Shown here: one piece after another, positions 8,689 through 26,498 of the stretch
Layout: the number at the start of each line of letters is the position of its first letter
Numbering within the stretch: position 1 is the first letter of the stretch
Made by a program: the position numbers and the translations under genes
The notes under the pieces: generated by a model
Seen by the model: the letters and a program-made list of their open reading frames with translations, nothing else
What the model was told of the DNA's origin: nothing
Database searches by the model: none
IMG/VR virus record: IMGVR_UViG_3300042368_001013
Span: 1-64,000 of that record
DNA from: a virus
Length of the DNA: 64,000 bases
Direction: 5' to 3' (one strand)

Positions 8689-8853
8689 TTATTCAAATTT
8701 TGCGCGAATCTCGTTCGCAAGGAAAGCAATCAGCATACCAATTACGCTACCAACAATAGCACCTTCATAGTTATAGTGGTAAGACAAACCAATCAGATTG
8801 ATTACTATAAGAAGGGCCATCGGAACCGTGAGTTTGTTAATAATGTTTTTCAT
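8689..8853 (-). CDS. Small two-helix membrane protein, leaderless
   Basis: A 54-residue protein, MKNIINKLTVPMALLIVINL, with two hydrophobic segments separated by SYHYNYEG and a basic end (NEIRAKFE). The start at 8853 is chosen because a promoter -10 (TATAAT) lies exactly 6 nt upstream. tRNA-Glu follows 6 nt after the stop, so the two are probably co-transcribed. No family is recognised. Confidence 0.6.
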   Translation of the reverse strand: MKNIINKLTVPMALLIVINLIGLSYHYNYEGAIVGSVIGMLIAFLANEIRAKFE

Positions 8854-8859
8854 AATTGA

Positions 8860-8887
8860 ATTATACATCAAGAATCACTTTAGGCAA
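8860..8887 (-). promoter_or_regulatory. Sigma-70 promoter, leaderless (gene at 8853)
   Basis: TTGCCT, 16 bp, TATAAT, 6 nt, ATG. It lies within the 3' end of the HNH gene. Confidence 0.65.
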
Positions 8888-9202
8888 GTATTTATGGCTA
8901 ACATTCTTATAACCAACTGGTTTAGTGCTATTTTCTATATGAGTTATTCTTCTATGGCAATTTGCACACACACATTGACATTTTTTAATTTCATCAAGTA
9001 CTTTGACAATAGTGCTTGACTCCAGAAGTCTTGTGACCTTTGCAACTTTTGTAGAAGGATCTATATGATGCCATTCCAAACAAATGGGATCATTTAGACC
9101 ACAAAGTTCACACTTCTTATCTTTCATAAAATTTGCATACCAAAGTCTTCGTTCAGCTCTTTGCTTACGCTTGTGCAATACATTATTTTTTTTATTTGCC
9201 AT
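8861..9202 (-). CDS. HNH endonuclease
   Basis: A 113-residue protein. Basic N-terminus (KKNNVLHKRKQRAERRLW), CELCG zinc pair, LEWHHIDPSTK core, CVCANCHRRI second zinc pair: a complete HNH nuclease with its zinc ribbon. It sits immediately after tRNA-Pro, a typical place for a free-standing homing endonuclease, although a packaging or repair role is possible. Start 9202 is used because the longer frame runs through the tRNA. Confidence 0.85.
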   Translation of the reverse strand: MANKKNNVLHKRKQRAERRLWYANFMKDKKCELCGLNDPICLEWHHIDPSTKVAKVTRLLESSTIVKVLDEIKKCQCVCANCHRRITHIENSTKPVGYKNVSHKYLPKVILDV

Positions 9203-9204
9203 AA

Positions 9205-9278
9205 TCGGGCATGCTGGATTTGAACCAACGGCATCTTGCTCCCAAAGCAAGCGCTCTACCAAGCTGAGCTAATGCCCG
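9205..9278 (-). tRNA. tRNA-Pro (TGG)
   Basis: Acceptor CGGGCAT/ATGCCCG, anticodon stem CTTGC/GCAAG around TTTGGGA (anticodon TGG), T loop TTCAAAT. Confidence 0.94.
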
Positions 9279-9300
9279 TGTTATTATTTATTACGCCAGT

Positions 9301-9328
9301 ATTATACAGTAAAGATAGGCACAGTCAA
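9301..9328 (-). promoter_or_regulatory. Sigma-70 promoter upstream of tRNA-Pro
   Basis: TTGACT, 16 bp, TATAAT on the minus strand, about 22 nt before the tRNA. Confidence 0.6.
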
Positions 9329-9358
9329 ATATAAATATTGTAGTAGTAAATGAAATTG

Positions 9359-9469
9359 TTAATTTTTACTTTCTTTGAAGTAAATTATAATTTCTGCAAT
9401 TCCCAAAGCAATAACTGGCAGAAACGTAGCACCAGCAAACCACCAAAATGGTACGGTATGTTCTACCAT
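9359..9469 (-). CDS. Small membrane protein (36 residues)
   Basis: MVEHTVPFWWFAGATFLPVI then ALGIAEIIIYFKESKN: a single membrane helix with a charged C-terminus. Its ATG overlaps the stop of the 51-residue membrane protein (TAATG), which supports a real translationally coupled gene. Confidence 0.5.
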   Translation of the reverse strand: MVEHTVPFWWFAGATFLPVIALGIAEIIIYFKESKN

Positions 9470-9624
9470 TAGACTTCACATCCAGTCTTCTTTTTCTTTG
9501 TAAGAAGATACTTTATCATTCCTTCGATCATCCCAAAGATCATCAAAGGAAATATAATCATGAAACAAAGAGTAAGTACAGAAACTCTTTTAAATTCTTC
9601 AATGAAAAGATCAATGGATCGCAT
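9469..9624 (-). CDS. Small membrane protein (51 residues)
   Basis: MRSIDLFIEEFKRVSVLTLC then a hydrophobic segment rich in Met, Ile and Phe and a Lys-rich tail (TKKKKTGCEV). It overlaps the end of the phosphoesterase by 14 nt and the next membrane ORF by TAATG. The three form an operon. A holin-like or envelope role is possible but only inferred from size and topology. Confidence 0.55.
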   Translation of the reverse strand: MRSIDLFIEEFKRVSVLTLCFMIIFPLMIFGMIEGMIKYLLTKKKKTGCEV

Positions 9625-10369
9625 AGGTGTCCAGTTTTAAAGATCCATCTGAATCTTCATAAAGAAATGTGCAGTTGTCTTTCTCTGTCCAACAGCCACA
9701 GTTGGCATATGTAATATTATTTACAGTATACAACTTTGGTTCGTGTAAATGCCCACAGACAATGCCATCATATTTCTTTTCCTTGGCGTATTTGATAACA
9801 ACGCTTTCAAAGCTTTCGATGAACTGGGCTGCTCTCTTTACTTTAATCTTTACATACTTTGAGATAGACCAGTATCTCATTCCCATCATTCTTCTGCACC
9901 AATTGAACCAATCATTGATTTCCAATATTAGTTCATATGCATAATCACCTAGTTTGTAAATATAAGAACTGACAGGAAACTTTGTGAGAAAATCAAACTG
10001 ATGACCATGAAGAATAAGAAACTTCTTTCCTGAAGAAGTAGTGTATTCTTCTCGTTCACTCAAACTGATATTACCAAAGATATGATGGCCTGAAAACTTT
10101 GCCATGAACTCATCATGGTTTCCATAGATGTAATGAATCTTTGTTCCCTTGCGAGAAAGTTTGAGCAATCTTTCGATGACTTCCATATGGTGATTTTGTT
10201 TCTCGGCATTCATGGAAAATGCCTGTTTGAATCTCCATATATCGATAATATCTCCCACAAGGAAGATATTATCAAATTCATTATTTTTTAGAAATGCAAT
10301 AAGAGGCTTTGTCTTTGCTTTCTTGGAAGCCAAATGAAAGTCTGAAAGAAAGACAGTCTTGTAATGCAT
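9611..10369 (-). CDS. LpxH-like metallophosphoesterase
   Basis: A 252-residue calcineurin-like phosphoesterase of the UDP-2,3-diacylglucosamine hydrolase type. All metal motifs are visible: SDFHL (residue 9), GDIIDIW (about 39), GNHDE (about 84), HGHQFD (about 120) and GHLH (about 210). LpxH-family enzymes make lipid X for lipid A; the phage enzyme could alter the envelope or act on another phosphoester. It is preceded by a late promoter and followed by two small membrane proteins in the same operon. Confidence 0.8.
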   Translation of the reverse strand: MHYKTVFLSDFHLASKKAKTKPLIAFLKNNEFDNIFLVGDIIDIWRFKQAFSMNAEKQNHHMEVIERLLKLSRKGTKIHYIYGNHDEFMAKFSGHHIFGNISLSEREEYTTSSGKKFLILHGHQFDFLTKFPVSSYIYKLGDYAYELILEINDWFNWCRRMMGMRYWSISKYVKIKVKRAAQFIESFESVVIKYAKEKKYDGIVCGHLHEPKLYTVNNITYANCGCWTEKDNCTFLYEDSDGSLKLDTYAIH

Positions 10370-10375
10370 TTCTAA

Positions 10376-10383
10376 TATTTATC
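10376..10383 (-). promoter_or_regulatory. T4-type late promoter, near-leaderless
   Basis: GATAAATA on the minus strand, 6 nt before the phosphoesterase ATG, overlapping the stop of the upstream gene. Confidence 0.6.
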
Positions 10384-10816
10384 GCCGTCTAGAGAAGGCA
10401 ACCAAAGTTGCCATCGCCACAAGCAATCCCATTCCTGGAGCAGGAACGGGAGGACGCACAGGCCCATCGTAAGGAATGCTTTCAGTCGGAAATTCCATAC
10501 ACACGCTCTCAATACGGTCATAGTGCATGGGAATGAACATATCCTGATCTACAGTCTGCACGGTCATCACAAGGTTTCCTTCACGATAGATCTTGTGAAC
10601 CCAAAAGCCATCAAAGGAACCCATGAAAAAATTATGAGGAATCTGTGGGTAGTTAGAAACAGTCGGATGATCAATCGCTTCCCCAATCGGTTCCGTGATC
10701 GTCAAGGTATTGTCAAAGGTCAGCGGCTTGGTATAAGAAACTTCAACATACATCGAACCTTCGTTGATGGAGGTTGAGAAAAGATTGCCCTGTCCGTAAA
10801 TCAAAGATACGCTCAT
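10379..10816 (-). CDS. Protein with PEP-CTERM-like C-terminal sorting signal
   Basis: A 145-residue protein. Residues 1-120 look beta-rich (YVEVSYTKPLTFDNTLTIT). The C-terminus is VPAPG, then a hydrophobic stretch (MGLLVAMATLVAF), then SRRR. This is the layout of PEP-CTERM exosortase signals, in the VPAPG variant I associate with planctomycetes. No N-terminal signal peptide is visible, which is odd for a sorted protein. The start overlaps the upstream stop (TAATGA). It could be anchored in the membrane by the tail alone. Confidence 0.6.
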   Translation of the reverse strand: MSVSLIYGQGNLFSTSINEGSMYVEVSYTKPLTFDNTLTITEPIGEAIDHPTVSNYPQIPHNFFMGSFDGFWVHKIYREGNLVMTVQTVDQDMFIPMHYDRIESVCMEFPTESIPYDGPVRPPVPAPGMGLLVAMATLVAFSRRR

Positions 10817-11130
10817 TAGATCCCGTCCATTTCATTGTTGTCATTGGGTCCAAAGAATCCCAATGCGTTGTCAACGTCTGCCTTATCGTCCAAAGCCTGT
10901 TGCTGCTTCATCTTTTTCATGCGCTCCGGTGTACGGAACTTCTTCATGAAGTCACACTTGCAATGGTCAAACTCACGGTCATCAGCGTGAATGAGAAGCC
11001 CGTCCCATTCATCGCACCAATGCCATCCATCGTCAAGTTCCTGTGCGGTCAGCATGACGCTCTCATCGCCATCAAAGGGCTGCATGAGGTAGTTCCAACG
11101 CTCTTGAGTCATTTTGTGTTTGTCGCTCAC
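10816..11130 (-). CDS. Hypothetical protein, GTG start
   Basis: A 104-residue protein (SDKHKMTQERWNYLMQPFDG) with a Trp/Asp-rich middle (LDDGWHWCDEWDGLL) and an acidic end. The GTG start at 11130 is chosen because it overlaps the upstream TGA as GTGA and has an AGGAGG ribosome site 7 nt before it. No family is recognised. Confidence 0.6.
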   Translation of the reverse strand: MSDKHKMTQERWNYLMQPFDGDESVMLTAQELDDGWHWCDEWDGLLIHADDREFDHCKCDFMKKFRTPERMKKMKQQQALDDKADVDNALGFFGPNDNNEMDGI

Positions 11131-11411
11131 TTGCCGTCCTCCTGTTTGAAGCAATCCCAACCCTTGGCTTTGGCGAAGTCGTGCTGCAATTCAGCACTAG
11201 TGAAATGCAAACGGCAGATCATCCGCCTCGCCTCGTCGCGCTCGGCGGTGATGGTTGCGTTCTCCTGCCGCAGTCGCTTGTTTTCCTGCCATGCCTTTTC
11301 GAGCATCGAAACTGCCTCGGTCGGAGTCATCTCTACGATCACTTCTCCTTCGCACCCCATCAACGTAACGGGGCAGGAAGCATCAATCGTCTTTGGTTTC
11401 TTCTTGCTCAC
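11127..11411 (-). CDS. Coiled-coil protein ending GWDCF, copy 1, GTG start
   Basis: A 94-residue protein. Its C-terminal half (LRQENATITAERDEARRMIC ... AKGWDCFKQEDGK) is paralogous to the next gene upstream (ERERDEARREIC ... RGWDCFKEDGK). GTG at 11411 overlaps the upstream TGA and follows AAGGAGG. Such ERDEAR...GWDCF tails occur in several phage leucine-zipper-like proteins; the function is unknown. Confidence 0.65.
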   Translation of the reverse strand: MSKKKPKTIDASCPVTLMGCEGEVIVEMTPTEAVSMLEKAWQENKRLRQENATITAERDEARRMICRLHFTSAELQHDFAKAKGWDCFKQEDGK

Positions 11412-11689: not shown

Positions 11690-11694
11690 TGGTA

Positions 11695-11877: not shown

Positions 11878-11879
11878 GT

Positions 11880-12111: not shown

Positions 12112-12378
12112 TTAGTCCTTGTTGTATTCCTGATTGGTCATACGAGTGATGCTACGAATATAGCCGTAACGACGACGAGCGCAAGCAACTATGCGCTTGT
12201 ATTCCTTGGCGGTGCAGTAGAAGTGAAGGTCAAATGACTTGCCTTCCAGCATCATACCGGACCCAACGAACATTCGGCTGTAACGCTTTTCCAGCCCACG
12301 GGAAATTTGGAAATAGTTTCCACGGTTGTACTGAAAGAAGTAGTGGTACTTGGTTTCTTTCTTGGTTTTGGTGTTCAT
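12112..12378 (-). CDS. Small basic hypothetical protein, leaderless
   Basis: An 88-residue basic protein (MNTKTKKETKYHYFFQYNRG, AKEYKRIVACARRRYGYIRS). The start at 12378 is fixed by a promoter whose -10 ends 6 nt upstream. It is the first gene of a minus-strand operon running to about 10.4 kb. No family is recognised. Confidence 0.6.
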   Translation of the reverse strand: MNTKTKKETKYHYFFQYNRGNYFQISRGLEKRYSRMFVGSGMMLEGKSFDLHFYCTAKEYKRIVACARRRYGYIRSITRMTNQEYNKD

Positions 12379-12384: not shown

Positions 12385-12412
12385 AGTATAGCACATACCC
12401 AATGCAAGTCAA
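12385..12412 (-). promoter_or_regulatory. Sigma-70 promoter, leaderless (gene at 12378)
   Basis: TTGACT, 16 bp, TATACT, 6 nt, ATG. Confidence 0.75.
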
Positions 12413-12422: not shown

Positions 12423-12430
12423 GATAAATA
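12423..12430 (+). promoter_or_regulatory. T4-type late promoter, leaderless
   Basis: GATAAATA, 5 nt (ACTTT), ATG at 12436. Confidence 0.7.
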
Positions 12431-12435: not shown

Positions 12436-12984
12436 ATGGACTATTTGACGAATTACTACAAAAATTTATCAGAGCAACTTCAGAATAAAGTCAATATGCT
12501 TTCTTCTCAAATAAAATTGTTGAATGAAGATGACTGGTGGAGAGATCCCCAATTTAATGCTCCTGTTCCACAAGAGCGTGGAGTAGATCCAGCACGAGGA
12601 ATTATTCCTTCAATAGATGATGTCAACCCACCAGAGTCAAACCCAAAAAGAGTAACAGCTCCGCCACCAACTAGAAATCCTAAACCAAAAAAACCTGAAT
12701 CAGCTGAAGAACCTTCAGAACCTGGAGACCCAAATGAAGAATGGGACTTCCATTTTATCAGAGATAATTGGTATAGAATATGGAAAGATCAATGGGAAAG
12801 ACTATATGGCAAAGACAAATTTGTAGATGATATGAATAAAGAATTTGAAAGAATGATTCAAGAAATGGAGCGAATATATAAAAAGACACGCGGACAATAT
12901 GGTTCAAGAGCACCAATTTCTAAATCATGGCAAAAAGCCGTAGAACATTTCTTTAAGTATTTCGTTCAACCAACTCTTGCGTAA
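12436..12984 (+). CDS. YYKNL-tagged late protein, proline-rich middle
   Basis: A 182-residue protein. Residues 1-36 (MDYLTNYYKNLSEQLQNKV... to LLNE) are almost identical to the start of the protein at 26820-27176, after which the two diverge. Residues 60-105 are proline-rich; residues 110-175 are helical with many aromatic and charged residues. NLSE/Q in the tag fits the (I/L)xE rule of T4 gp21 cleavage. The late promoter and shared tag suggest a packaged or capsid-core protein. Confidence 0.7.
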   Translation: MDYLTNYYKNLSEQLQNKVNMLSSQIKLLNEDDWWRDPQFNAPVPQERGVDPARGIIPSIDDVNPPESNPKRVTAPPPTRNPKPKKPESAEEPSEPGDPNEEWDFHFIRDNWYRIWKDQWERLYGKDKFVDDMNKEFERMIQEMERIYKKTRGQYGSRAPISKSWQKAVEHFFKYFVQPTLA

Positions 12985-12994: not shown

Positions 12995-13150
12995 ATGAAA
13001 AAATTTAAACAATTTTTAGAAGATTATGATTATGATGTTTATCTTGATACTGTATATACCCAAAAAGGATTAACTGGCGGAAAACCAAACGCAGATGAGT
13101 TAGACGACATCTCAATGATTAAGGCTCCAGAAGGACAAACAACAGAATGA
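12995..13150 (+). CDS. Small acidic protein with MKKFKQFLED start
   Basis: A 51-residue protein, MKKFKQFLEDYDYDVYLDTV, with an acidic C-terminal half. The start resembles the T4 capsid-targeting sequence and three other proteins here (14642, 30462, 35634). The stop overlaps the next ATG (ATGA), supporting translation. Possibly an internal head protein or a coupling peptide. Confidence 0.5.
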   Translation: MKKFKQFLEDYDYDVYLDTVYTQKGLTGGKPNADELDDISMIKAPEGQTTE

Positions 13151-14037
13151 ACCAGTCAAAGAACTTTTACAAAAATCAAATAGCAATTCTTTCAGAACAA
13201 ATTAAATTTCTTGAATTGGAATTAGAGGCCATCAATGAAGCAGTAAAGGGCCCAAGTTCAATACTTGGTAATCCAATTCCACAAGATTTAAAAGATCGCT
13301 GGGCAAATAGAAAAAGAATTGAAGATGAGGAAAACGCTAAGTTCCAAGCAAGACGCCAAGAAATGATGGCTAAAGGCAAAGAAATAAATCCTGCAACTGG
13401 TAGAACTAATGACGAAGATCGTGAAGCAGCAAGAATTGCCCGTGCCCAAGATTATTACGGAGATGTTTTAGCAAATACCGCAAGCAAAACACCAGATCGA
13501 CTTTCTGCAAAAGATAGTGCAGATCTTTTAATGTATAATATTATGTCTGGTAAAAGCAAACGCGATCCAAAAATTTATGGACAAGATAGAGAAAGTATGA
13601 GATCAGCAGAAACTGCTGATGATATTAGGATTGGAAGTTATAGTGATGCTGTCACGAAAATAACTAATCCAAAAGCAGGTAGAAGTGAAGCTGAAATAGG
13701 AAAATTAATACCTCAAATGTTGTCAAATATTCAACTTCCTACTTCTGAAATAGCAAATATCTCCAGAGAAGCCAGCAAAAGAGAAAATCCAACAAGAATT
13801 TCTGGAATGTCACCCATTACCAGAGGACAATTCTATAGCCAGACGGGGCAAGATTACAATGCATTGAATCCCCAAAATGTCGCTACCTTCAGACAAATGA
13901 ACACAGGTACCCCTGACTATACTGATCTCAACAAGCCTTTACCCCCAGAGATGAGTTTCAGTAGTGTTCTGAATCAAGTTGGCGGTCGTAAAAAGCCATC
14001 TACGAGCCTTACTTTGAATCCAAAGCCTCGTTTATGA
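13147..14037 (+). CDS. Late protein with FYKNQ-type helical N-terminus
   Basis: A 296-residue protein. The N-terminus (SKNFYKNQIAILSEQIKFLE) is a diverged relative of the YYKNL tag. The rest is polar, with RDREAARIARAQDYYGDVLA and Asn/Pro/Thr-rich low-complexity segments towards the end. It starts by ATGA overlap with the preceding small gene. No catalytic motif is seen. Probably structural or packaged. Confidence 0.6.
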   Translation: MNQSKNFYKNQIAILSEQIKFLELELEAINEAVKGPSSILGNPIPQDLKDRWANRKRIEDEENAKFQARRQEMMAKGKEINPATGRTNDEDREAARIARAQDYYGDVLANTASKTPDRLSAKDSADLLMYNIMSGKSKRDPKIYGQDRESMRSAETADDIRIGSYSDAVTKITNPKAGRSEAEIGKLIPQMLSNIQLPTSEIANISREASKRENPTRISGMSPITRGQFYSQTGQDYNALNPQNVATFRQMNTGTPDYTDLNKPLPPEMSFSSVLNQVGGRKKPSTSLTLNPKPRL

Positions 14038-16058: not shown

Positions 16059-18236
16059 TTACCTGTCCCGGCGATCCCGGAACTTCATGCCCTCCGGGAA
16101 GCAGGGCAGTCCGTAGATCCCGGAGTCCATCTTGCGGATGGGCTGACCCGCCACGATGTCCACATACCGGGTGAGGAACACACGGCTACCTGCCCGCTTG
16201 CCCATCGTCTTGATGAACTGGTTCTTCACCTTGGTGAAGTTACCTCCGGTGGCAATCGCCTCCTCGTCCTTGACGGGCTTCGGGGTCTGAATGAGGAAGT
16301 ACGAATCGTAGCCGGGGAAGGTATCTTCGTGCAGGACAAGGCATCCCTCCTTGAACGCTTCCGCCGCAGCCTTGTACCGCTCCGAATCTCCAACGGTCAG
16401 ACCACCCTTGTAGTGATGGGAGATGGAATCGGCATTCTTCTGCTTCTCCTGTTCGCTCAAGCAGAACTGCTCAAAGCAGCGTTCCGTCAGGATACGAGTG
16501 GGCATCACATACATTCCAACGCATCGGGCGTTCAACTTGGTGCGGAGGGAATTGAGCATGGCGTAGATGACACCATCGGGCAGATTCGTCCTGCCGTTCT
16601 TGTTGTCGATGACGGTGACCGTATCAAGGATCTCGTTCGTCACGGTGAGGGAAGTACCCTCGCCGTACCAGTAGACTCCATCCTCCTTGGAGGTGTTGAT
16701 GTGGTTGGGGCAACCGTCCGTCACGACCATGATGGTCGGAATCTGAATGTTGTTCTCCTGCACCCATCCCGCCATGAACTGGGAAGTGAGGGCAATGCAC
16801 TCCACCGTGGGCGTACCGTTCAGGGTGAGGTAACGGGAAGTGGGGCGGGTCTGCTGCACATAGGTTTCGTAGATGTACGCGCACAGACGCTCACGCTTGG
16901 CCGCATCGTCCTTGGAGGAGGCAATGTTCAGCAGCCTAGCCGTACCGATGTGCATACCCGTGGGGCAGTCACGATTCAAAGCCCGTGCGCCCCATTCACG
17001 GTCGAACTCGTAGGAGAACGCATCGGGATTCTGCTTCCTCCATGCATCACACGCAGCCTGATACTCGGGATCAAGGTTGCCGTAGACATCGGTGTAGCCG
17101 AACACCTCAAATGGGATCTTCGCCTTCTCGCAGAACCACACCAACTGGAGAACCTGAAGGTAGGCGTGGCCGATGGTCGCACCCATGCTGCCGCTGAAGT
17201 CAAGCATGAACACGATGCCGTGGTTCTTGCCGTCCTGCTTGACGATCTTCGACAGGAAGATATCGTCATGGGTGCGGTACTGGTGGAGGCGGTCAAGGTT
17301 CAGCATCCCGGTCTGCTTCGGACGCTCACGGCGGATCTCGTCCGCAGCCTTCTTGCGCTCAAACTGGGCGACCATCTGACGGACGAACGCATCGGACTCG
17401 CGCACGAACTGGCGGTACTCCTCAAGGAGCAGCGGCCTGTTGCTGTTGCCCTCGTAGTCGTTGAGGATGGTTTCCGTGCTGACGATGTGCTTGGACAGAT
17501 CCTTGACTCCGGTGAGAGTGACCACCGCGTCCTGATACTGCGAACCGTCCTTGCGGCGGAAGTCACCGGGGACATTCGTCTTGTCGCCCATGATCTTGTC
17601 CTGCTCCTTCTCACCCTGCTTGCCACCCTTGGCAGCAGCAGCCTCCATGTCCTCGCGCATCTCCTTCATGGAAGGGTGCTTATACAGGAACTTGGCGACC
17701 TCAAACACCTGATCGTAATTGACCACGGCATCCACCATGTCCACGACCTCCTGCTCCGTCCCCTCAAAGGTCATGGGGATGAAGCCGGGAACGCCCCACT
17801 TGAAGTGGATGTTCAGGCGGTTGAGGAACCCGGCCTTCGTGAAGTCCATCTTCTTGAAGCCGAACATATCAATGTCTGCGATCTCCTTGTAGCCAAGGAA
17901 GAAGTCACGGCGAGTGCCGGGGAACTTCTGCTTCATCAACTTCTCAATGCGGACATCTTCGATGATGTTGGCAATGCGAGAGAGCAGCATGGGGTTGTAG
18001 CCGTCTGCCTCCGCAGCCTTCAGCAACTCATAGCCGCGCTCGTAGGGAGTCCACAGAGCGTGGCTGATCTCGTGGGCCACGAGCATGGTCTTGACGGTTT
18101 CGGACACATCCCACATGGGCATGACGAGGTGACGCGACTTCACATCGAACGATGCGGTTTCAGCGTCCTTGGAGAAGGAGAACGAAATGTTCTCGGATGC
18201 GAGAGCCTTGGCGAAGATGGAGAGAGAGGTGTTCAT
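16059..18236 (-). CDS. VWA-domain protein with HExxH motif (CobT-like)
   Basis: A 725-residue protein. HEISH at residues 55-59 looks like a zinc metalloprotease helix (MLVAHEISHALWTPYERG). A von Willebrand A domain begins near residue 340 with the MIDAS motif DFSGSMG (about 345) and VVTDGCPNH further on. Phage proteins of this kind are paired with a MoxR/CobS AAA+ ATPase, as here. MoxR-VWA pairs act as chaperones or metal-insertion machines in other systems; the phage target is unknown. The leaderless promoter sets the start at 18236. The gene is clearly GC-rich relative to the structural genes. Confidence 0.85.
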   Translation of the reverse strand: MNTSLSIFAKALASENISFSFSKDAETASFDVKSRHLVMPMWDVSETVKTMLVAHEISHALWTPYERGYELLKAAEADGYNPMLLSRIANIIEDVRIEKLMKQKFPGTRRDFFLGYKEIADIDMFGFKKMDFTKAGFLNRLNIHFKWGVPGFIPMTFEGTEQEVVDMVDAVVNYDQVFEVAKFLYKHPSMKEMREDMEAAAAKGGKQGEKEQDKIMGDKTNVPGDFRRKDGSQYQDAVVTLTGVKDLSKHIVSTETILNDYEGNSNRPLLLEEYRQFVRESDAFVRQMVAQFERKKAADEIRRERPKQTGMLNLDRLHQYRTHDDIFLSKIVKQDGKNHGIVFMLDFSGSMGATIGHAYLQVLQLVWFCEKAKIPFEVFGYTDVYGNLDPEYQAACDAWRKQNPDAFSYEFDREWGARALNRDCPTGMHIGTARLLNIASSKDDAAKRERLCAYIYETYVQQTRPTSRYLTLNGTPTVECIALTSQFMAGWVQENNIQIPTIMVVTDGCPNHINTSKEDGVYWYGEGTSLTVTNEILDTVTVIDNKNGRTNLPDGVIYAMLNSLRTKLNARCVGMYVMPTRILTERCFEQFCLSEQEKQKNADSISHHYKGGLTVGDSERYKAAAEAFKEGCLVLHEDTFPGYDSYFLIQTPKPVKDEEAIATGGNFTKVKNQFIKTMGKRAGSRVFLTRYVDIVAGQPIRKMDSGIYGLPCFPEGMKFRDRRDR

Positions 18237-18242: not shown

Positions 18243-18271
18243 ATTGTAACCGATGTGGGGGGAGAAGTCAA
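18243..18271 (-). promoter_or_regulatory. Sigma-70 promoter, leaderless (VWA gene)
   Basis: TTGACT, 17 bp, TACAAT, 6 nt (ATACGC), ATG. Confidence 0.85.
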
Positions 18272-18658: not shown

Positions 18659-20005
18659 TTAGGCGTTCATAGCGTACTGGGTGTCGGTGTCGGGGTTGGA
18701 CAACTTATCCAACTGTGCTTTCAATTCTGCAATCTTCTTCTGCTCTGCGGTCAGAGCGTTGACGGGGTTGCTCACCGGGGCATCCTTCATTCCCTCCGGG
18801 ACAGGGAGGATCGTGGGGTCGATCTTCGTGTAGAGGTTGAAGAACGCCTCCTTCGTGGACGCATCGAACCGCGTCAGCGTCAACTTGATGGCCTTCTCCT
18901 TGTCGCCAAAGATGGCGAACGCCTTGCACACTTCCTCCAAGCGGCGGGTGGTGATGATGTCATCCAGTCCGCCCTCCTTGAAGCCCATGCGGATCGTTTC
19001 CGCCCACTTCGTGAGGTACTGGGCGAACTCCTTGTCCTCCTTGCCGTATGCCTTCATCTTGCGGATGATGATACGCGCTTCGATGGTGCGATCCGCGTAG
19101 TCCTGCTCAAACCAGTAGGAGAAGCGGTCAAGGAACGCCTCGTTCATGCAGCGCGTACCCACAAACCGATCAGACTCACCCTTGCCCTTGGTGTTGGCAG
19201 TCGCCACCACATTGAAGCCCACGGCAGGCTTGATGAACATACCGATCTTCTTGATGTAGATGCCCTTGCCCTCAAGCACGGGCTGAAGGCACATCATGCG
19301 CTCCGTCCCAAGGTCGATCTCGTCAAGGAGGAGGATGGAGCCACGCTGCATGGCCTGAACCACGCCACCGAACACGAACTTCGTTTCGCCGTTGACGAGG
19401 CGGAAGCCACCGATGAGGTCATCCTCGTCCGTTTCGGCGGTGATGTTGACGCGAATGCACTCGCGGCCCGTGGAGGCGCAAATCTGCTCCACCATCGTGG
19501 TCTTGCCGTTGCCGGACATACCCGTGATGTAGACGGGAGCGAACTGCTTGGATGCGAGGATGGTGGAGATGTCATCGTGGTGACCCCACGGAACGAAAGT
19601 CTCGTTCTTGGCGGGGACGAGCGAAACATCGGAGGACGGCATGACGAGGTTGTAGGTGTTGCTGTTCATGTTGCTGATTGTATCACAAGTTTCGGAGGAA
19701 GTCAAGGTTTCGGAAGAAGATTCGGAAATATTTTCTTCCACGTTATCGGACTCTGCGGGAGTGTAGTCAAGGACAACCATTTCCGGGATGATGTACTTGC
19801 CACGACCCGCACGGCGGTTCTTGGGCTGCACCAGCCAAGCCGGGAGGACGCTGTAGCACTGCTCGCCAAGGGCATGGGACTGGGTGAGTGCGGCAAGGCA
19901 CTGCTCACGGGTGTAGACGGCTTCCCCGATGGTCTGCGGATTGCCGTACAAGAATTGAAGGTGGTTGAGGAAGTTACGCTTGCGAATGTCGATGTTGCTG
20001 TTCAT
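18659..20005 (-). CDS. cobS: MoxR/CobS-type AAA+ ATPase with N-terminal extension
   Basis: A 448-residue protein. Residues 1-112 are an extension with a basic GRGKYIIPE motif and a Ser/Glu-rich linker. The AAA+ core has GMSGNGKT (Walker A, 162-169), ILLLDEIDLG (Walker B), NVVATANTKGKGESD (sensor 1) and EAFLDRF. Phage CobS homologues usually begin near residue 120 of this protein. A second promoter inside the gene precedes an in-frame ATG at 19669 (residue 113), so a short form covering only the ATPase core may be made. It works with the VWA protein. Confidence 0.85.
   Translation of the reverse strand: MNSNIDIRKRNFLNHLQFLYGNPQTIGEAVYTREQCLAALTQSHALGEQCYSVLPAWLVQPKNRRAGRGKYIIPEMVVLDYTPAESDNVEENISESSSETLTSSETCDTISNMNSNTYNLVMPSSDVSLVPAKNETFVPWGHHDDISTILASKQFAPVYITGMSGNGKTTMVEQICASTGRECIRVNITAETDEDDLIGGFRLVNGETKFVFGGVVQAMQRGSILLLDEIDLGTERMMCLQPVLEGKGIYIKKIGMFIKPAVGFNVVATANTKGKGESDRFVGTRCMNEAFLDRFSYWFEQDYADRTIEARIIIRKMKAYGKEDKEFAQYLTKWAETIRMGFKEGGLDDIITTRRLEEVCKAFAIFGDKEKAIKLTLTRFDASTKEAFFNLYTKIDPTILPVPEGMKDAPVSNPVNALTAEQKKIAELKAQLDKLSNPDTDTQYAMNA
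19677..19705 (-). promoter_or_regulatory. Internal sigma-70 promoter in the moxR-like gene
   Basis: TTGACT, 17 bp, TACAAT, 7 nt, ATG at 19669, in frame with the ATPase. It lies in the linker between extension and core. Confidence 0.65.
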
Positions 20006-20011: not shown

Positions 20012-20040
20012 ATCTTACCACACAATCTTCCAAAAGTCAA
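20012..20040 (-). promoter_or_regulatory. Sigma-70 promoter, leaderless (moxR-like gene)
   Basis: TTGACT, 17 bp, TAAGAT, 6 nt, ATG at 20005. Confidence 0.7.
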
Positions 20041-20202: not shown

Positions 20203-20448
20203 TTAGCCGGTCGTGTTGTAGTAGTTCTTCTCCGACTTGCACTCGTTCGCCTTGCAGCACTTCTCAAGGGTCACGATGCGCTGCCACATCTTCTCGTTCT
20301 CGCTGTAGAGATCCTTGACCATTTCGTCTTGATGACGAATGATGTTGTTCAACTTCTCGTTCAGTCGAACGCGGAAGTAGGCGATGGCGAAGTAGGCGGC
20401 ACCTGCGAGGGTGATGACGGTAACGAGCGTGTTGAGATCAATATTCAT
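20203..20448 (-). CDS. Membrane-anchored coiled-coil protein, leaderless
   Basis: An 81-residue protein: N-terminal membrane helix (LVTVITLAGAAYFAIAYF), then a coiled coil (RLNEKLNNIIRHQDEMVKDL) and a Cys-containing tail (CCKANEC). The topology resembles small spanin- or envelope-associated phage proteins, but there is no lipobox. The start is fixed by the promoter 6 nt upstream. Confidence 0.6.
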   Translation of the reverse strand: MNIDLNTLVTVITLAGAAYFAIAYFRVRLNEKLNNIIRHQDEMVKDLYSENEKMWQRIVTLEKCCKANECKSEKNYYNTTG

Positions 20449-21546: not shown

Positions 21547-21903
21547 TCAGGAGTCGAAGTCCTCGTCCGCATCCGGGTCAAACGGGTAGTGTTCCCGCTC
21601 CGTCTGACCTGCGTACTCCTCGTAGGTCATCTCCATGATCTGCGCGAGCATCATCATGAAGGCGGCGAACCCCAAGTGAATCTCGGGCATCCGTCCATCC
21701 GCCTTCTCACCCACCATCCAGTCGGTGACGTACTGGATCCCCTTGGCGACGATCATGCGCTGACCCTCGTGCTTGTAGAAGTTCGGGTGTTCACCTGCGA
21801 ACTGCATCAGGGTCTTGACGACATCCAACGGGTCGGGCTTGAAAGCCCCCATGTCGATGTCCTTGCGGCTGAAGAAACCATCGTACTTGTTCTGCGGTGA
21901 CAT
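21547..21903 (-). CDS. Hypothetical protein with EHPN motif, copy A
   Basis: A 118-residue protein. The segment FAGEHPNFYKHEGQRMIVAKG resembles FVTEHPNWADHDEDIARLAQG in the neighbouring 71-residue protein, so the two are likely related. Acidic C-terminus (DPDADEDFDS). AAGGAGA precedes ATG, and the start overlaps the upstream stop (TAATG). Function unknown. Confidence 0.6.
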   Translation of the reverse strand: MSPQNKYDGFFSRKDIDMGAFKPDPLDVVKTLMQFAGEHPNFYKHEGQRMIVAKGIQYVTDWMVGEKADGRMPEIHLGFAAFMMMLAQIMEMTYEEYAGQTEREHYPFDPDADEDFDS

Positions 21904-22118
21904 TAGCGAATCTCCTTGAGGGTGGTGTGCAGGGACATGACGAACTCGTACTCCTCATCGGTGACCATATCAGGACCGCTGATCTGCGTCAGGATGAAGT
22001 AGCCTTGAGCGAGGCGGGCAATGTCCTCATCGTGATCTGCCCAGTTGGGGTGTTCGGTGACGAAGTTTGCGATCTCGTTGATGAGGTCGGAGATGTCGGT
22101 GGTGGTGGGCTTTCTCAT
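21903..22118 (-). CDS. Hypothetical protein with EHPN motif, copy B, leaderless
   Basis: A 71-residue helical protein, MRKPTTTDISDLINEIANFV. The start lies 6 nt after TACAAT and also overlaps the stop of the upstream gene (ATGA), so it can be read from two transcripts. See copy A for the shared motif. Confidence 0.6.
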   Translation of the reverse strand: MRKPTTTDISDLINEIANFVTEHPNWADHDEDIARLAQGYFILTQISGPDMVTDEEYEFVMSLHTTLKEIR

Positions 22119-22432
22119 GTCGGTATTGTAACAGGTTCGGGGTACGGTGTCAAGGTCACGCTGCGAAAATGTTTTACTTGTTTTGCGAGGCGGATGAAGG
22201 TCTGGAACTTCTCATCCGGCATCTCAACCAACAGGTCTAGATTGTAGGTTCCGATGCCGAAAACAAAACTCTGATCTAACGATGTGACGACATGAACATC
22301 GAACATTCCGGTCGGGTCTGACAAGGCCAGGCATTGAAACACGCTCTTGACCATCTTCTGCAATCTGCGCCGATGCCATCCCATGGAATTGGTCAACGGG
22401 GAGTGCATCTCAATGTGGACGGTGGCTTTCAT
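22115..22432 (-). CDS. Hypothetical protein
   Basis: A 105-residue protein (KATVHIEMHSPLTNSMGWHR) with an alpha/beta pattern. It starts by ATGA overlap with the acidic protein upstream. Its last codons contain the -10 box of the promoter for the next gene. No family is recognised. Confidence 0.6.
   Translation of the reverse strand: MKATVHIEMHSPLTNSMGWHRRRLQKMVKSVFQCLALSDPTGMFDVHVVTSLDQSFVFGIGTYNLDLLVEMPDEKFQTFIRLAKQVKHFRSVTLTPYPEPVTIPT
22125..22153 (-). promoter_or_regulatory. Sigma-70 promoter, leaderless (gene at 22118)
   Basis: TTGACA, 17 bp, TACAAT, 6 nt (ACCGAC), ATG. Embedded in the 3' end of the upstream coding region. Confidence 0.85.
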
Positions 22433-22668
22433 TCGAAGTCCCCGTCATCGATGAAGTCGGGAACATCCCGGTCAAGGTCATCGTCACCGTAGCAGTAGTC
22501 ATCGGCCTCGTAGTCGCCCATCATGCGGTCGATCTCATCGGGCGTGTAGCCTTCCTGCTCCAGCATGTCGCGGATCTCGCTGTCGCTCATGCCATCGAGG
22601 TCGCAGTCATCGTAGGGCAGCACAAGTTCGGTGTCGTTGGACGGGTAGTCGTTGGTGTGATCGTTCAT
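22429..22668 (-). CDS. Very acidic small protein, leaderless (DNA-mimic candidate)
   Basis: A 79-residue protein with about 30 Asp/Glu and only three Arg. Charges are spread over the whole length (DDCDLDGMSDSEIRDMLEQE, YGDDDLDRDVPDFIDDGDFE). Strongly acidic small phage proteins are often DNA mimics that block host nucleases or polymerases, but the acidity is the only evidence here. The EGYTPDEIDRMM segment may be a helix-forming interaction site. First gene of a small operon. Confidence 0.6.
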   Translation of the reverse strand: MNDHTNDYPSNDTELVLPYDDCDLDGMSDSEIRDMLEQEGYTPDEIDRMMGDYEADDYCYGDDDLDRDVPDFIDDGDFE

Positions 22669-22674: not shown

Positions 22675-22703
22675 ATGATACCATATCCAAAGAAGGCTGT
22701 CAA
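22675..22703 (-). promoter_or_regulatory. Sigma-70 promoter, leaderless (acidic protein)
   Basis: TTGACA, 17 bp, TATCAT, 6 nt, ATG at 22668. Confidence 0.8.
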
Positions 22704-22787: not shown

Positions 22788-23084
22788 TTAGTTCATGTTC
22801 AGCATTTTCTCCGTCTTGCGAGAGAATGCTGCGATCCCGTCAATCTTATCCTCACCAATCAGGATCCAGTCCTTCTTGATGATGTCGAAGGCGCAGATGT
22901 ATCCCTCGGCGGTGTGGCGAGTGCCATTAGGGAGATCGCCCCCCAGTTGCTTGATGAACACGGGGTCAGTCGTGATCTCACGCGAGGTTGAGGTGCCGTC
23001 CTTCTTCCTGAACGACACAAAGAGCGTATCGTTGTTGGAGAGGGCGACGCGAAGAATCGTGGACATCGGAAGTTCGGTGGTCAT
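22788..23084 (-). CDS. Small SH3-barrel-like phage protein, leaderless
   Basis: A 98-residue protein. FVSFRKKDGTSTSREITTDP followed by AFDIIKKDWILIGEDKIDGI fits a small beta-barrel family common in phages (I think DUF2693-like: a FxKKDGxxR strand pair and a final strand with W/R). Function unknown. The start is 6 nt after CACAAT. Confidence 0.55.
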   Translation of the reverse strand: MTTELPMSTILRVALSNNDTLFVSFRKKDGTSTSREITTDPVFIKQLGGDLPNGTRHTAEGYICAFDIIKKDWILIGEDKIDGIAAFSRKTEKMLNMN

Positions 23085-23090: not shown

Positions 23091-23118
23091 ATTGTGCCTT
23101 GTGTTCGGGTGAAAGCAA
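23091..23118 (-). promoter_or_regulatory. Weaker sigma-70 promoter, leaderless (gene at 23084)
   Basis: TTGCTT, 16 bp, CACAAT, 6 nt, ATG. Same geometry as its neighbours but a poorer -35. Confidence 0.55.
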
Positions 23119-23146
23119 ATGGGTGTGCAGATTTATTTCAAACTTC

Positions 23147-23581: not shown

Positions 23582-23599
23582 GGTGGTGTTCCTTGTGGG

Positions 23600-23848
23600 T
23601 TAGGCGTTGAGGCACTTCTTCATGCGTTCGTCTGCTCGGCGGGACATATCCGCATCCAACTCACTCGCCAACTTTGCTTCTTCCTTCATGCGGCGGAGGA
23701 GGTACTGGAGCGCCCGCAGGTCGTGTTCGTTCGTGTTTTCTGCGAGGTTGCCCAAGTACCAAAGCGAGGAGGTGACATAACCGTAGGCGTAGGCGTGGTC
23801 GTGGGTGACGGAGGCGGGGATCTTGACGGTGGTGGTGCTGTTCTTCAT
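23600..23848 (-). CDS. Small hypothetical protein, leaderless
   Basis: An 82-residue helical protein, MKNSTTTVKIPASVTHDHAY, with HDLRALQYLLRRMKEEAKLA. The start at 23848, not 23959, is fixed by the promoter 6 nt upstream. No family is recognised. Confidence 0.6.
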   Translation of the reverse strand: MKNSTTTVKIPASVTHDHAYAYGYVTSSLWYLGNLAENTNEHDLRALQYLLRRMKEEAKLASELDADMSRRADERMKKCLNA

Positions 23849-23854
23849 GTCGGT

Positions 23855-23883
23855 ATTGTAACAGGTCGGGGTGCGAAAGTAAA
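23855..23883 (-). promoter_or_regulatory. Sigma-70 promoter, leaderless (gene at 23848)
   Basis: TTTACT, 17 bp, TACAAT, 6 nt (ACCGAC), ATG. The -35 is the T-rich tail of the preceding terminator. Confidence 0.8.
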
Positions 23884-23919
23884 GGGGGACAGAAAGAATA
23901 TTTCGCTTTCTGTCCCCCC
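23880..23919 (-). terminator. Terminator fused to the next promoter
   Basis: GGGGGACAGAAAG paired with CTTTCTGTCCCCC, then TTTACTTT, which is also the -35 region of the downstream gene. Confidence 0.65.
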
Positions 23920-23927
23920 ACAGGGGT

Positions 23928-24176
23928 TCAGGTGAGCGGGATCCCGTACTTTGCCTCAAGGGCTTCCTTCAGTCCGGCGAGAACCTTCTCGCGGTTGCCC
24001 TTCAGACCGTATTCCTTCTTGGCGAGGGCGTAGCAGGAGACGCCACGGGTGAGGCGCATCGGGGTGCCACGGGCAGCGGTCTTGATTTCGAACTTCAGAC
24101 CGTTGTAGATCATCAGTTCACGGTAGGCGCAGATCTGTGCGGGAGTGTTCAGGACGATGTCGTTGGTGGTGGTCAT
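23928..24176 (-). CDS. Small hypothetical protein, leaderless
   Basis: An 82-residue protein, MTTTNDIVLNTPAQICAYRE, ending in a helical GLKEALEAKYGIPLT. The start is 6 nt after TACAAT. No family is recognised. Confidence 0.6.
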   Translation of the reverse strand: MTTTNDIVLNTPAQICAYRELMIYNGLKFEIKTAARGTPMRLTRGVSCYALAKKEYGLKGNREKVLAGLKEALEAKYGIPLT

Positions 24177-24182
24177 GCGTAG

Positions 24183-24211
24183 ATTGTATCACACCTTGCC
24201 GGAAAATGCAA
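24183..24211 (-). promoter_or_regulatory. Sigma-70 promoter, leaderless (gene at 24176)
   Basis: TTGCAT, 17 bp, TACAAT, 6 nt (CTACGC), ATG. Confidence 0.75.
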
Positions 24212-24234
24212 CCACAAAGAAAGAAATATTTGGA

Positions 24235-24302
24235 GTCCCATAACGTCCAGGTCGTCCAGACAACTATCAGCCAGCCCTCGGAGGGCTGGCTGATAGTAGC
24301 TC
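24235..24302 (-). repeat. GTCC/CTATCAG hairpin repeat, copy 5
   Basis: GTCCCATAACGTCC, then ACTATCAGCCAGCCCTC paired with GAGGGCTGGCTGATAG and TAG. The inner stem is the same as in copy 6 except at the apex. Confidence 0.8.
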
Positions 24303-24338
24303 AGCCCCCTCTAGCCATTTCCCTTTTCCCCTCCCTCC

Positions 24339-24410
24339 TTGCCTTCCGGGGGTCCCGGCTCTTCTTTCCCCAGGTCTTGGGGCGAAGCCGGATTCCCTCC
24401 CGGAAGGCAT
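24339..24410 (-). terminator. Long imperfect stem-loop 3' of the gene at 24438
   Basis: GCCTTCCGGG (24341-24350) pairs with CCCGGAAGGC (24399-24408); an inner CCCCAGG/CTTGGGG helix is also visible. About 70 nt of structured RNA between the stop and repeat copy 5. Confidence 0.4.
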
Positions 24411-24437
24411 CGTGGACGAATTTACCGGGACGGTGGT

Positions 24438-24983
24438 TCATTCGGCCTTCCCCCGAATGATGATCCACAACAGGGCTTGCATCGTGGCCGCGTCCATGTT
24501 GTAGGCCGATGCCACTTCGCGGACGGCGTTAGCAATGATCCGATATTCCGTCTTATTCGGAGCATCCTTGCCAAGTCCTGCGGCACGGCACATCCACACA
24601 TCCACAACCACCGCGTCACGGTCTCCGGCGATGGCACGGGCGAACGCATTCGTCTTGGGGCCACGCAGTCCGTCGAATCCTTCGCGGACGCATCGGTCTG
24701 CAGCCTCCACGTGGGAACGCAGTCCCTTCGGCGTGATACCCTGCGCGTACTCGTGCGCCTTACGCTTATTGTGCGCCCACGTGACGCGGGGCGAGAACGC
24801 GGAGACAACGCTGCACGAAATTTCCATGCTCCAATCGGGGCGAATGAAGCACAGACGACGGGCGAAGTCTCCGGCTTCAACGTACCACGCATCGGCGGAC
24901 GCATGATCGAAGAGGGTAGCGGTGGAGAGGAGGGAACGGAAACGGTTCGAAACGGTGGTGGTGGTGGTGGTGGTGCTGTTCAT
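24438..24983 (-). CDS. Phage protein with FSPRVxWxxNKxxA motif (DUF7178-like), leaderless
   Basis: A 181-residue protein with a poly-Thr N-terminus. Core motifs: VVSAFSPRVTWAHNKRKAHE, GPKTNAFARAIAGDRDAVVVDVW. I recognise this arrangement (AFSPRxxWxxN...KTxxFxxxIxGDxxAVxVDxW) from a family widespread in actinophages and rhizobial phages; the glycosylase-like helical pattern suggests DNA binding, but no function is established to my knowledge. Start 24983 is fixed by its promoter. Confidence 0.7.
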   Translation of the reverse strand: MNSTTTTTTTVSNRFRSLLSTATLFDHASADAWYVEAGDFARRLCFIRPDWSMEISCSVVSAFSPRVTWAHNKRKAHEYAQGITPKGLRSHVEAADRCVREGFDGLRGPKTNAFARAIAGDRDAVVVDVWMCRAAGLGKDAPNKTEYRIIANAVREVASAYNMDAATMQALLWIIIRGKAE

Positions 24984-24989
24984 GCGTAC

Positions 24990-25018
24990 ATTGTACCATG
25001 TCATGCCGTCCATGTCAA
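24990..25018 (-). promoter_or_regulatory. Sigma-70 promoter, leaderless (gene at 24983)
   Basis: TTGACA, 17 bp, TACAAT, 6 nt (GTACGC), ATG. Confidence 0.85.
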
Positions 25019-25051
25019 TAGGTGGCGCCGAAATATTATAATATTCATTCC

Positions 25052-25117
25052 GTCCCATAACCATACCGTCCTCGACAACTATCAGCCAGCCCTCCGAGGG
25101 CTGGCTGATAGTAGCCC
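25052..25117 (-). repeat. GTCC/CTATCAG hairpin repeat, copy 6
   Basis: GTCCCATAACC, then ACTATCAGCCAGCCCTC paired with GAGGGCTGGCTGATAGTAG. A GC-rich hairpin GCCCCGA/TCGGGGC lies at 25132-25151, nearer the gene. Confidence 0.8.
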
Positions 25118-25189
25118 ATATAAACAACCTAGCCCCGAACGAATCGGGGCAGGGACGAATCCTCTTCGGTTTGTACGAGCACCACCTCG

Positions 25190-25387
25190 TTATTTCGGTT
25201 CGGCTCGCTTGAGGATTACGGGCGTGATGTAGGCCATTGCCCACATGAGGCACACGCTCGGGATCATTGCCCAGTCGAAGCGATGGGCCGTCGCCTCCGT
25301 GATAGCGACCGAGGAGATGAGAGTGGCGAGAGCCACGAAGAGGAAGGTGATGACGTGTCGGACGGTGGTGGTGATGGTGGTGTTCAT
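25190..25387 (-). CDS. Small two-helix membrane protein, leaderless
   Basis: A 65-residue protein, MNTTITTTVRHVITFLFVAL, with two membrane segments (residues 11-28 and 40-58) and a basic tail (LKRAEPK). The start at 25387 is fixed by the promoter 6 nt upstream. Candidate envelope or lysis-related protein on topology alone. Confidence 0.65.
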   Translation of the reverse strand: MNTTITTTVRHVITFLFVALATLISSVAITEATAHRFDWAMIPSVCLMWAMAYITPVILKRAEPK

Positions 25388-25393
25388 GGGTGT

Positions 25394-25422
25394 ATTGTAC
25401 CAGTTAGTGGTGCGGAAGTCAA
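25394..25422 (-). promoter_or_regulatory. Sigma-70 promoter, leaderless (gene at 25387)
   Basis: TTGACT, 17 bp, TACAAT, 6 nt, ATG. It overlaps the stop of the next gene upstream. Confidence 0.85.
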
Positions 25423-25829
25423 GCCCCCGGAAACGAAAGAACCTGATACTTTGCGCCGGGCTTACGCTTGGACTGCGCGGCCCCGCTGTCGCGGCTGTCG
25501 ATGTGGTTCGCCGCAGCAAGGAAGCCGTAGGCAATGGCGCGCATCTCTGCGGCGTTGAGGGCCATGCTAACCTTCTCGTCACCGATGCCCAAGATGTTCG
25601 CGGTGGAGGAGCAGACAGCCGATGCGTAGACACGCACGGAGTACGGGCCCACCGGGATGACGAACGCAGCACCACGGTCACCTTCAAAGGTGACGCGGGT
25701 GTAGTTGCTGCGGTTGGCGATCTTGCATTCGCCAATGGTGACATTGCGTTCCGCGGTGCGGAGGAAGTCAGGGGTGCGAGAGGAGGAGTGGACGATAGAA
25801 ACGGCGTTGGAGAAAGTGGTGCAGGTCAT
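25419..25829 (-). CDS. Hypothetical protein, leaderless
   Basis: A 136-residue protein. Beta-rich middle (TRVTFEGDRGAAFVIPVGPY) followed by a helical ALNAAEMRAIAYGFLAAANH and a basic end. Conserved-looking, but the family is not recognised. The longer frame to 25907 is rejected because TACAAT lies 6 nt before the ATG at 25829. Confidence 0.6.
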   Translation of the reverse strand: MTCTTFSNAVSIVHSSSRTPDFLRTAERNVTIGECKIANRSNYTRVTFEGDRGAAFVIPVGPYSVRVYASAVCSSTANILGIGDEKVSMALNAAEMRAIAYGFLAAANHIDSRDSGAAQSKRKPGAKYQVLSFPGA

Positions 25830-25835
25830 GCGTAG

Positions 25836-25864
25836 ATTGTACCATGAGCAGGTGCGAATGTCAA
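25836..25864 (-). promoter_or_regulatory. Sigma-70 promoter, leaderless (gene at 25829)
   Basis: TTGACA, 17 bp, TACAAT, 6 nt (CTACGC), ATG. Confidence 0.85.
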
Positions 25865-25900
25865 GGGGTGGAAGAAAGAAATTTATTTCTTTGATTGGGC

Positions 25901-25929
25901 TTGACATGGAAGGCGGAGTATGGTATCAT
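25901..25929 (+). promoter_or_regulatory. Sigma-70 promoter, leaderless (gene at 25936)
   Basis: TTGACA, 17 bp, TATCAT, 6 nt, ATG, on the plus strand. Confidence 0.8.
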
Positions 25930-25935
25930 GCGGGC

Positions 25936-26205
25936 ATGTGCAACACCACCACCGACCCGAACGAATTCGAACACTTCCCCTGCGACTGCCACCGCCCGGA
26001 GTTCGCCTACACGGACTCACTGTGCCCGATGTGCGAGGAGCAGCGGGAGCGCGAGCAGGAGGCCAAGCGCGAGGCGCGCAAGCAGCACGATGATGAGTAC
26101 GCAGCAGATAACTCTGCGTTCATCGACGCGGCTAGCCGGATGAGCCCCGAAGACTGGGACGCGGACAACGACTGGCTAGCATCAGCCGGTTGGGGTGAGA
26201 TGTAA
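25936..26205 (+). CDS. Small Cys-containing charged protein, leaderless
   Basis: An 89-residue protein: CDCHRPEFAYTDSLCPMC gives two zinc-ligand pairs, then a long charged helix (EEQREREQEAKREARKQHDD) and an acidic, Trp-containing end. Possible zinc ribbon plus coiled coil; function unknown. The longer frame from 25705 is rejected because of the promoter position. Confidence 0.65.
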   Translation: MCNTTTDPNEFEHFPCDCHRPEFAYTDSLCPMCEEQREREQEAKREARKQHDDEYAADNSAFIDAASRMSPEDWDADNDWLASAGWGEM

Positions 26206-26229
26206 GCCCCGAAGAAATATTCAAACTTC

Positions 26230-26261
26230 CAACGCCCACCCTTGACATGGGGTGGGCGTTG
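26230..26261 (+). terminator. Perfect hairpin carrying a -35 box in its loop
   Basis: CAACGCCCACCC (26230-26241) and GGGTGGGCGTTG (26250-26261) form a perfect 12-bp stem; the 8-nt loop TTGACATG contains the -35 of the next gene. It follows the stop of the gene at 25936 by 25 nt. Confidence 0.6.
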
Positions 26262-26270
26262 TGTTACAAT
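26242..26270 (+). promoter_or_regulatory. Sigma-70 promoter, leaderless (gene at 26277)
   Basis: TTGACA, 17 bp, TACAAT, 6 nt (ATACGC), ATG. The -35 is in the hairpin loop. Confidence 0.8.
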
Positions 26271-26276
26271 ATACGC

Positions 26277-26498
26277 ATGAGCACCACTCACAACAACCCG
26301 GCTGAAACCTCCCGCCCCTGCTGCTGCGTTTGCGGCGCTGATCACGTGGACGATAACGTTCGCGCTACCGAGCACGGTACGCTGTGCGTCATGTGCGTGG
26401 ACGATGTGCGCGCAGACATGGCATGGGACGCGCACGAGCGCGCCATGGGCTACGAAGGCGACGACGACCCCTACTGGGAGCAGCATGCGGAGGGCTAA
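26277..26498 (+). CDS. Small zinc-ribbon protein, leaderless
   Basis: A 73-residue protein with CCCVCGADH and CVMCVDDVR pairs (a CxxC...CxxC zinc ribbon, residues 15-42) and an acidic C-terminal helix ending in YWEQHAEG. Last gene of the GC-rich block and followed by a strong terminator. No family is recognised. Confidence 0.65.
   Translation: MSTTHNNPAETSRPCCCVCGADHVDDNVRATEHGTLCVMCVDDVRADMAWDAHERAMGYEGDDDPYWEQHAEG

Follow-up and report, generated by a model that had tools for sequence, protein, structure and literature searches.

Sigma-70 promoters locked to the start codon in a T4-like phage contig, and the leaderless genes that they predict

The first 64,000 bases (hereafter, the window) of the 91,794-base virus record IMGVR_UViG_3300042368_001013, which by its gene content is a T4-like, Kyanoviridae-related phage contig, carry a set of sigma-70 type promoters placed at a fixed distance from the start codons of their genes. 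This positional lock is real, and it very probably reflects a leaderless early module and a share of late genes that are leaderless too, in a phage whose host ribosomes would also use Shine-Dalgarno (SD) sequences.

A sequence-only reading of the window had assigned such promoters to 17 genes. All 17 sites were found again, but they serve only 16 open reading frames (ORFs). Direct reading reproduced the distances: the gap from the end of the -10 box to the ATG is 6 nucleotides (nt) in 15 of the 17, with 5 nt for the start at 582 and 7 nt for that at 19669, and the spacers are 16-17 nt. The first 15 sites, in order of position, lie on the minus strand and those before 25936 and 26277 on the plus strand. 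The point that the lock moves start codons was also borne out, as several of these genes have mechanically called ORFs that begin upstream at TTG or GTG (e.g. 18329 instead of 18236, and 25253 instead of 24983). For many small early genes whose starts are misplaced by gene callers, the lock thus supplies the right start codon. The sites are listed below, except for two that belong to a CobS-like ATPase gene (18659-20005) and are given with it; the handles refer to L088-L101, 14 close viral contigs recruited through this ATPase.

588..615, minus strand: sigma-70 type promoter of ORF 364-582, gap 5
8860..8887, minus strand: promoter of ORF 8689-8853, TTGCCT (-35)/TATAAT, gap 6, retained in the L089 and L091 orthologs
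12385..12412, minus strand: promoter of ORF 12112-12378, gap 6, retained in L091; the L089 ortholog is SD-led
18243..18271, minus strand: promoter of the CobT/peptidase-like gene, TTGACT-17-TACAAT, gap 6
16059..18236, minus strand: CobT/peptidase-like protein (PHROG 459) with a predicted leaderless start; ortholog contexts have gap 6 in 14 of 15 and gap 7 in L093
20455..20482, minus strand: promoter of ORF 20203-20448, gap 6
22125..22153, minus strand: promoter of ORF 21903-22118, TTGACA-17-TACAAT, gap 6, within the upstream ORF 22115-22432
22675..22703, minus strand: promoter of ORF 22429-22668, gap 6
23091..23119, minus strand: weak promoter of ORF 22788-23084, TTGCTT/CACAAT, gap 6; strong boxes with gap 6 in L093, L097 and L098
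23855..23883, minus strand: promoter of ORF 23600-23848, gap 6
24183..24211, minus strand: promoter of ORF 23928-24176, gap 6
24990..25018, minus strand: promoter of ORF 24438-24983 (DUF7178), TTGACA-17-TACAAT, gap 6
25394..25422, minus strand: promoter of ORF 25190-25387, gap 6
25836..25864, minus strand: promoter of ORF 25419-25829, gap 6
25901..25929, plus strand: promoter of ORF 25936-26205, TTGACA-17-TATCAT, gap 6
26242..26270, plus strand: promoter of ORF 26277-26498, TTGACA-17-TACAAT, gap 6

The sequence-only reading had called for a matrix scan compared with shuffled sequence; a matrix scan, set against simulated sequence, confirmed the lock. All ATGs that open a frame of at least 40 codons were scored with a generic two-box sigma-70 matrix, which was not derived from the 17 sites, and scores of at least 10 were counted by gap. 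Over the whole record, gap 6 was occupied by 15 ATGs, whereas the other gaps had 1.09 on average (Poisson p ~1e-12), and in each of 20 regional Markov simulations this gap held no more than one ATG; the weak promoter of 23084 fell under the threshold. An AT-rich block resembling an UP element lies at about -54 to -48 of the gap-6 promoters.

The lock is conserved in the relatives. In L088-L101 we counted 127 ATGs at gap 6, 14 at gap 7 and about 2 at other gaps, while the gap-6 count was 12 in L103, whose ATPase is only ~46% identical, and 18 within 14.8 kb in L165. In 73 of 92 contexts, the best promoter of an ortholog of a window gene has gap 6, despite differing spacer sequences; the exceptions are partly due to the choice of ATG by the script and partly real changes, such as the SD-led ortholog of 12378 in L089. 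A pattern search over 11 whole relative records gave 59 forward matches and none for the reversed pattern. The same scan shows no lock in T4, S-PM2 or the Methylophilales phage Melnitz, with no peak at 6 in the latter two. Among the matches listed for TTGACA-17-TACAAT-N-ATG in viral contigs, gaps 6 and 7 were in mild excess (19 and 16, against 1-11 elsewhere), from which single leaderless sites look widespread and their clustering appears to be the unusual part.

Some relatives depart from the consensus in the -35 region. Most gap-6 promoters of L096 (e.g. at 4066, 6014 and 7427) have AATTCTACACACACTCCC where the TTGACA region stands, and L090 and L095 have AATTACTGACTTCC there, with the -10 box, gap and ATG unchanged. 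Nearly all putative leaderless early promoters of each of these genomes share the non-consensus form, whereas close relatives use TTGACA. The pattern suggests a concerted, genome-wide regulatory change, and, speculatively, the variant might be an operator or activator site.

A constant spacing could also be inherited by copying, if a promoter with the first codons of its gene had spread by recombination between neighbours, so that the lock would reflect descent and not a need for leaderless starts. Promoter flanks are indeed repeated between genes in some genomes ('tatcgttggggtacTTGACA' in L091 and 'cgaacccttttggTACAAT' in L103). However, the distance is fixed although spacers, discriminators and upstream flanks differ at most sites, the lock persists after replacement of the -35 region in L096 and L090/L095, and an unrelated late promoter class, described below, has an equivalent lock. 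We regard copying as a quite unlikely explanation.

Transcription from sigma-70 promoters usually starts at the seventh base after the end of the -10 box, and a pyrimidine at -1 with A at +1 is the usual initiator context. As the -10 box ends 6 nt before the ATG, the A of this codon occupies the seventh position and is the expected +1. At all 139 distinct relative sites the base preceding the ATG is a pyrimidine, C or T, in agreement with transcription starting on this A.

The beginnings of the genes have the properties expected for leaderless translation, which is enhanced by CA repeats after the start codon and inhibited by structure (PMC9031893). In codons 2-5 of the window's genes, ACC accounts for 30% and AAC for 20% of codons, G makes up 7% of bases, and A+C falls from 82% to 53% downstream; the ACC/AAC bias is lost within 20 codons, and the same behaviour was seen at 149 distinct starts of relatives. 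The predicted folding energy of +1 to +40 is -1.5 kcal/mol, against -8.6 kcal/mol inside the same genes, and the corresponding values in the relatives are -1.9 and -8.6 kcal/mol (p 6e-48). Upstream of the 17 starts, the search for SD sequences gave one 5-nt match and none longer, the promoter occupying that position.

A second lock, missed by the sequence-only reading, was found in the late promoter class. TAAATA, which forms the core of the late box in T4, ends 5 nt before the ATG in 13 genes, structural and others, compared with 0-3 genes in Markov simulations, and scrambled words of the same composition gave no comparable peak at gap 5. The full TATAAATA box is rare; it is the core at gap 5 that is enriched.

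2657..2662, plus strand: late-type TAAATA of the ORF from 2668, gap 5
4032..4037, plus strand: late-type TAAATA of the ORF from 4043, gap 5
4930..4935, plus strand: late-type TAAATA of the ORF from 4941, gap 5
12425..12430, plus strand: late-type TAAATA of the ORF from 12436, gap 5
27182..27187, minus strand: late-type TAAATA of the ORF from 27176, gap 5
28615..28620, minus strand: late-type TAAATA of the ORF from 28609, gap 5
29240..29245, minus strand: late-type TAAATA of the ORF from 29234, gap 5
30468..30473, minus strand: late-type TAAATA of the ORF from 30462, gap 5
39479..39484, minus strand: late-type TAAATA of the ORF from 39473, gap 5
47360..47365, minus strand: late-type TAAATA of the head closure protein from 47354, gap 5
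51728..51733, plus strand: late-type TAAATA of the baseplate wedge protein from 51739, gap 5
54252..54257, plus strand: late-type TAAATA of the head-tail adaptor from 54263, gap 5
60969..60974, plus strand: late-type TAAATA of the portal protein, gap 5; start set at 60980, not at GTG 60965

In T4, about one helical turn separates the late box from the transcription start (PMC2988020), so that gap 5 would place +1 at or next to the ATG. Late gaps are bimodal in the terminase relatives, with SD matches in 2% of genes at gap 5-9 and in 71% at gap 20-32. The presence of putative leaderless and SD-led genes in the same genomes indicates that the host can use SD sequences.

These results also bear on the possibility that transcripts start far upstream and that the boxes before the ATG are AT-rich, non-SD ribosome-binding signals of the S1 type. 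An AT-rich bias at -20 to -10 of non-SD genes is known from several phyla, and has been ascribed to a promoter or an S1 site (PMC5397173). In the window, though, the signal is a complete two-box promoter with 16-17 nt spacing, the upstream AT-rich block and an exact phase, in GC-rich DNA; scrambled TAAATA words give no such peak, and leadered genes of the same phages have SD motifs. We give this explanation hardly any weight.

In the leaderless scheme that we favour, small, separately promoted genes would be read by the main RNA polymerase of the host, each promoter starting transcription on the A of the ATG to give a leaderless mRNA, and translation would begin at the 5'-terminal AUG, aided by the CA-rich, unfolded start and not by SD pairing. 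The late subset would likewise be transcribed from T4-type TAAATA promoters into leaderless mRNAs, with the other late genes leadered and SD-led. The matrix lock, the conservation in orthologs, the pyrimidine-A context, the CA-rich unfolded 5' ends and the lack of SD sequences together support leaderless transcription strongly, as had been claimed for the phage's early genes; the word 'early' is deduced from the host-type promoters, and the 5' ends, the early timing and initiation at a 5' AUG are predictions from the genome. By this design each gene would be a compact, portable cassette of promoter and ORF needing no ribosome binding site.

Several points weigh against this scheme. The matrix frequencies are E. 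coli-like and were entered by hand, and the relatives are non-independent samples. The +1 position was assigned from known promoter geometry, and an offset of 1-2 nt is possible. CA-rich starts also occur in a few promoterless genes (e.g. 23581), which shows that genes other than the putative leaderless ones can have this bias, and some ORFs may be covered by read-through from upstream promoters, as could be the case for 22118 behind 22432.

The claim that the leaderless set reveals the translation style of the host was not established, since the same phage has SD-led genes. A narrower version of the scheme, to which we give somewhat less than an even chance, is that leaderless expression is the ordinary mode of the host, for example an actinobacterium, which the phage copied, with nothing specific to the phage. 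The early gene 24438-24983 matches almost only phages of Mycobacterium, Gordonia and Rhodococcus, so that DUF7178 weakly indicates an actinobacterial host, and leaderless transcripts are reported to be common in mycobacteria (PMC4633059). On the other hand, the mycobacteriophage DUF7178 gene itself carries a GGAAGGG leader, the tmRNA and TerL relations described below indicate aquatic Kyanoviridae and not actinophages, and two genome scans for the host found nothing: among 84,980 genomes the CobS-like alignment turned up no true relative, and no genome matched a 73-nt tRNA-Lys pattern. The search for a WhiB-like motif, which marks freshwater actinophages, was negative, and three further early proteins had no phage match.

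A broader version is that of a deliberate two-mode programme, in which early genes and chosen late genes are leaderless and the rest SD-led, so that the leaderless set would still be translated, or have its translation timed, once host shut-off, phage takeover or a defence restricts canonical 30S initiation; we consider this unlikely.

Bacterial leaderless mRNAs (e.g. in mycobacteria and Caulobacter) and that of lambda cI likewise have +1 at the A of the ATG and no SD sequence, and a CA-rich or unfolded start favours their translation. Unlike those cases, a whole module of a T4-like phage and part of its putative late, gp55-type class share the design here, and the 5' ends are predicted. Phage leaderless genes are usually described one at a time, as for lambda cI, and a search of the open-access literature, with subscription papers mostly outside it, found no T4-like phage reported to have such a set. 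The early (sigma-70) and late (gp55) promoters of T4 are of the same classes, but their gaps of ~27-31 nt and 28 nt, respectively, give leaders of ~20-25 nt, mostly with an SD sequence, in contrast to gaps of 6 and 5 here. A conserved module of more than 12 putative leaderless genes, an equivalent late design and a clean split between leaderless and SD-led genes in one genome would offer a natural paired comparison for testing the choice that ribosomes make between the modes.

Pelagibacter phage HTVC008M (Kyanoviridae) shares the late TAAATA at gap 5 (10 genes) and the CobS/peptidase pair, but it has no sigma-70 peak at gap 6 and encodes ribosomal protein S21. With phage and host in culture, the late half of the scheme is directly testable. 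S21 was not found in the present contig, and the idea that a phage-encoded copy assists leaderless reading was therefore rejected there. By portal and terminase (~50% identity), Melnitz belongs with the nearest named phages; it shares the two-piece tmRNA, yet has neither the gap-6 nor the gap-5 lock.

The phages with sigma-70 promoters locked at gap 6 are freshwater viruses and relatives of T4. T4-type terminase, portal (PHROG 213, E 1.7e-187), neck and baseplate proteins place the contig near Kyanoviridae, and its TerL is ~50% identical to those of cyanophages and Melnitz. The CobS and peptidase-like gene pair (PHROG 249 and 459) is present, as in S-PM2 and HTVC008M. A two-piece (permuted) tmRNA lies at 2324-2602 of the window (Rfam RF04321, 78.6 bits against a gathering score of 47), a form known from aquatic phages of the Kyanoviridae-type T4-like group (PMC9004378). 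By eye, a gp55-like late sigma was recognised at record positions 83480-84049, and a gp45-like clamp at 87307. The majority of the sigma-70 promoters sit in a region at ~16.5-27 kb with a GC content of 0.50-0.58, against ~0.32-0.38 over most of the record; a chimeric assembly was set aside as its cause, because the relatives have the same GC-rich module beside AT-rich DNA.

The CobS-like ATPase gene contains a nested start. The start at 19669, formerly listed as a gene of its own, is an in-frame internal start of the ORF from 20005, both ending at 18659.

18659..20005, minus strand: CobS-like AAA ATPase, long form of 448 amino acids (TIGR01650/PHROG 249)
20012..20040, minus strand: promoter of the long form, TTGACT-17-TAAGAT, gap 6
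18659..19669, minus strand: putative short form of 336 amino acids from the in-frame internal start
19677..19705, minus strand: promoter of the short form, embedded in the coding sequence, TTGACT-17-TACAAT, gap 7

The internal methionine is conserved in every relative aligned, and the -10 box and gap 7 of the embedded promoter recur in all 11 relative loci whose sequence includes the upstream part, with varying strength (the -35 box is weaker in L090, L095, L096 and L101). The ATPase is thus likely made in long and short forms, comparable to T4 gene 17, which is annotated with internal starts.

Apart from the promoters, eight proteins of the window (3290-3961, 12436-12984, 13147-14037, 26820-27176, 27230-27913, 27923-28609, 28722-29234 and 29312-29917) have in common an N-terminal motif like M-D/N-Y-L-T-N-Y-Y-K-N-L-x-E-x-L, after which they diverge; by analogy, it resembles the idea of the capsid-targeting tag of T4 internal head proteins. 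The small protein 10379-10816 ends in VPAPG...RRR, a PEP-CTERM-like tail kept in several relatives; a signal of this type, suggested by the sequence, was rejected as it had no family match. By eye, the translation of 4941-6980 is a 679-amino-acid protein of RCC1-like repeats, and 36723-37796 is a GMP reductase-like gene (NF003470, E 8.9e-116, slightly under the curated cut-off).

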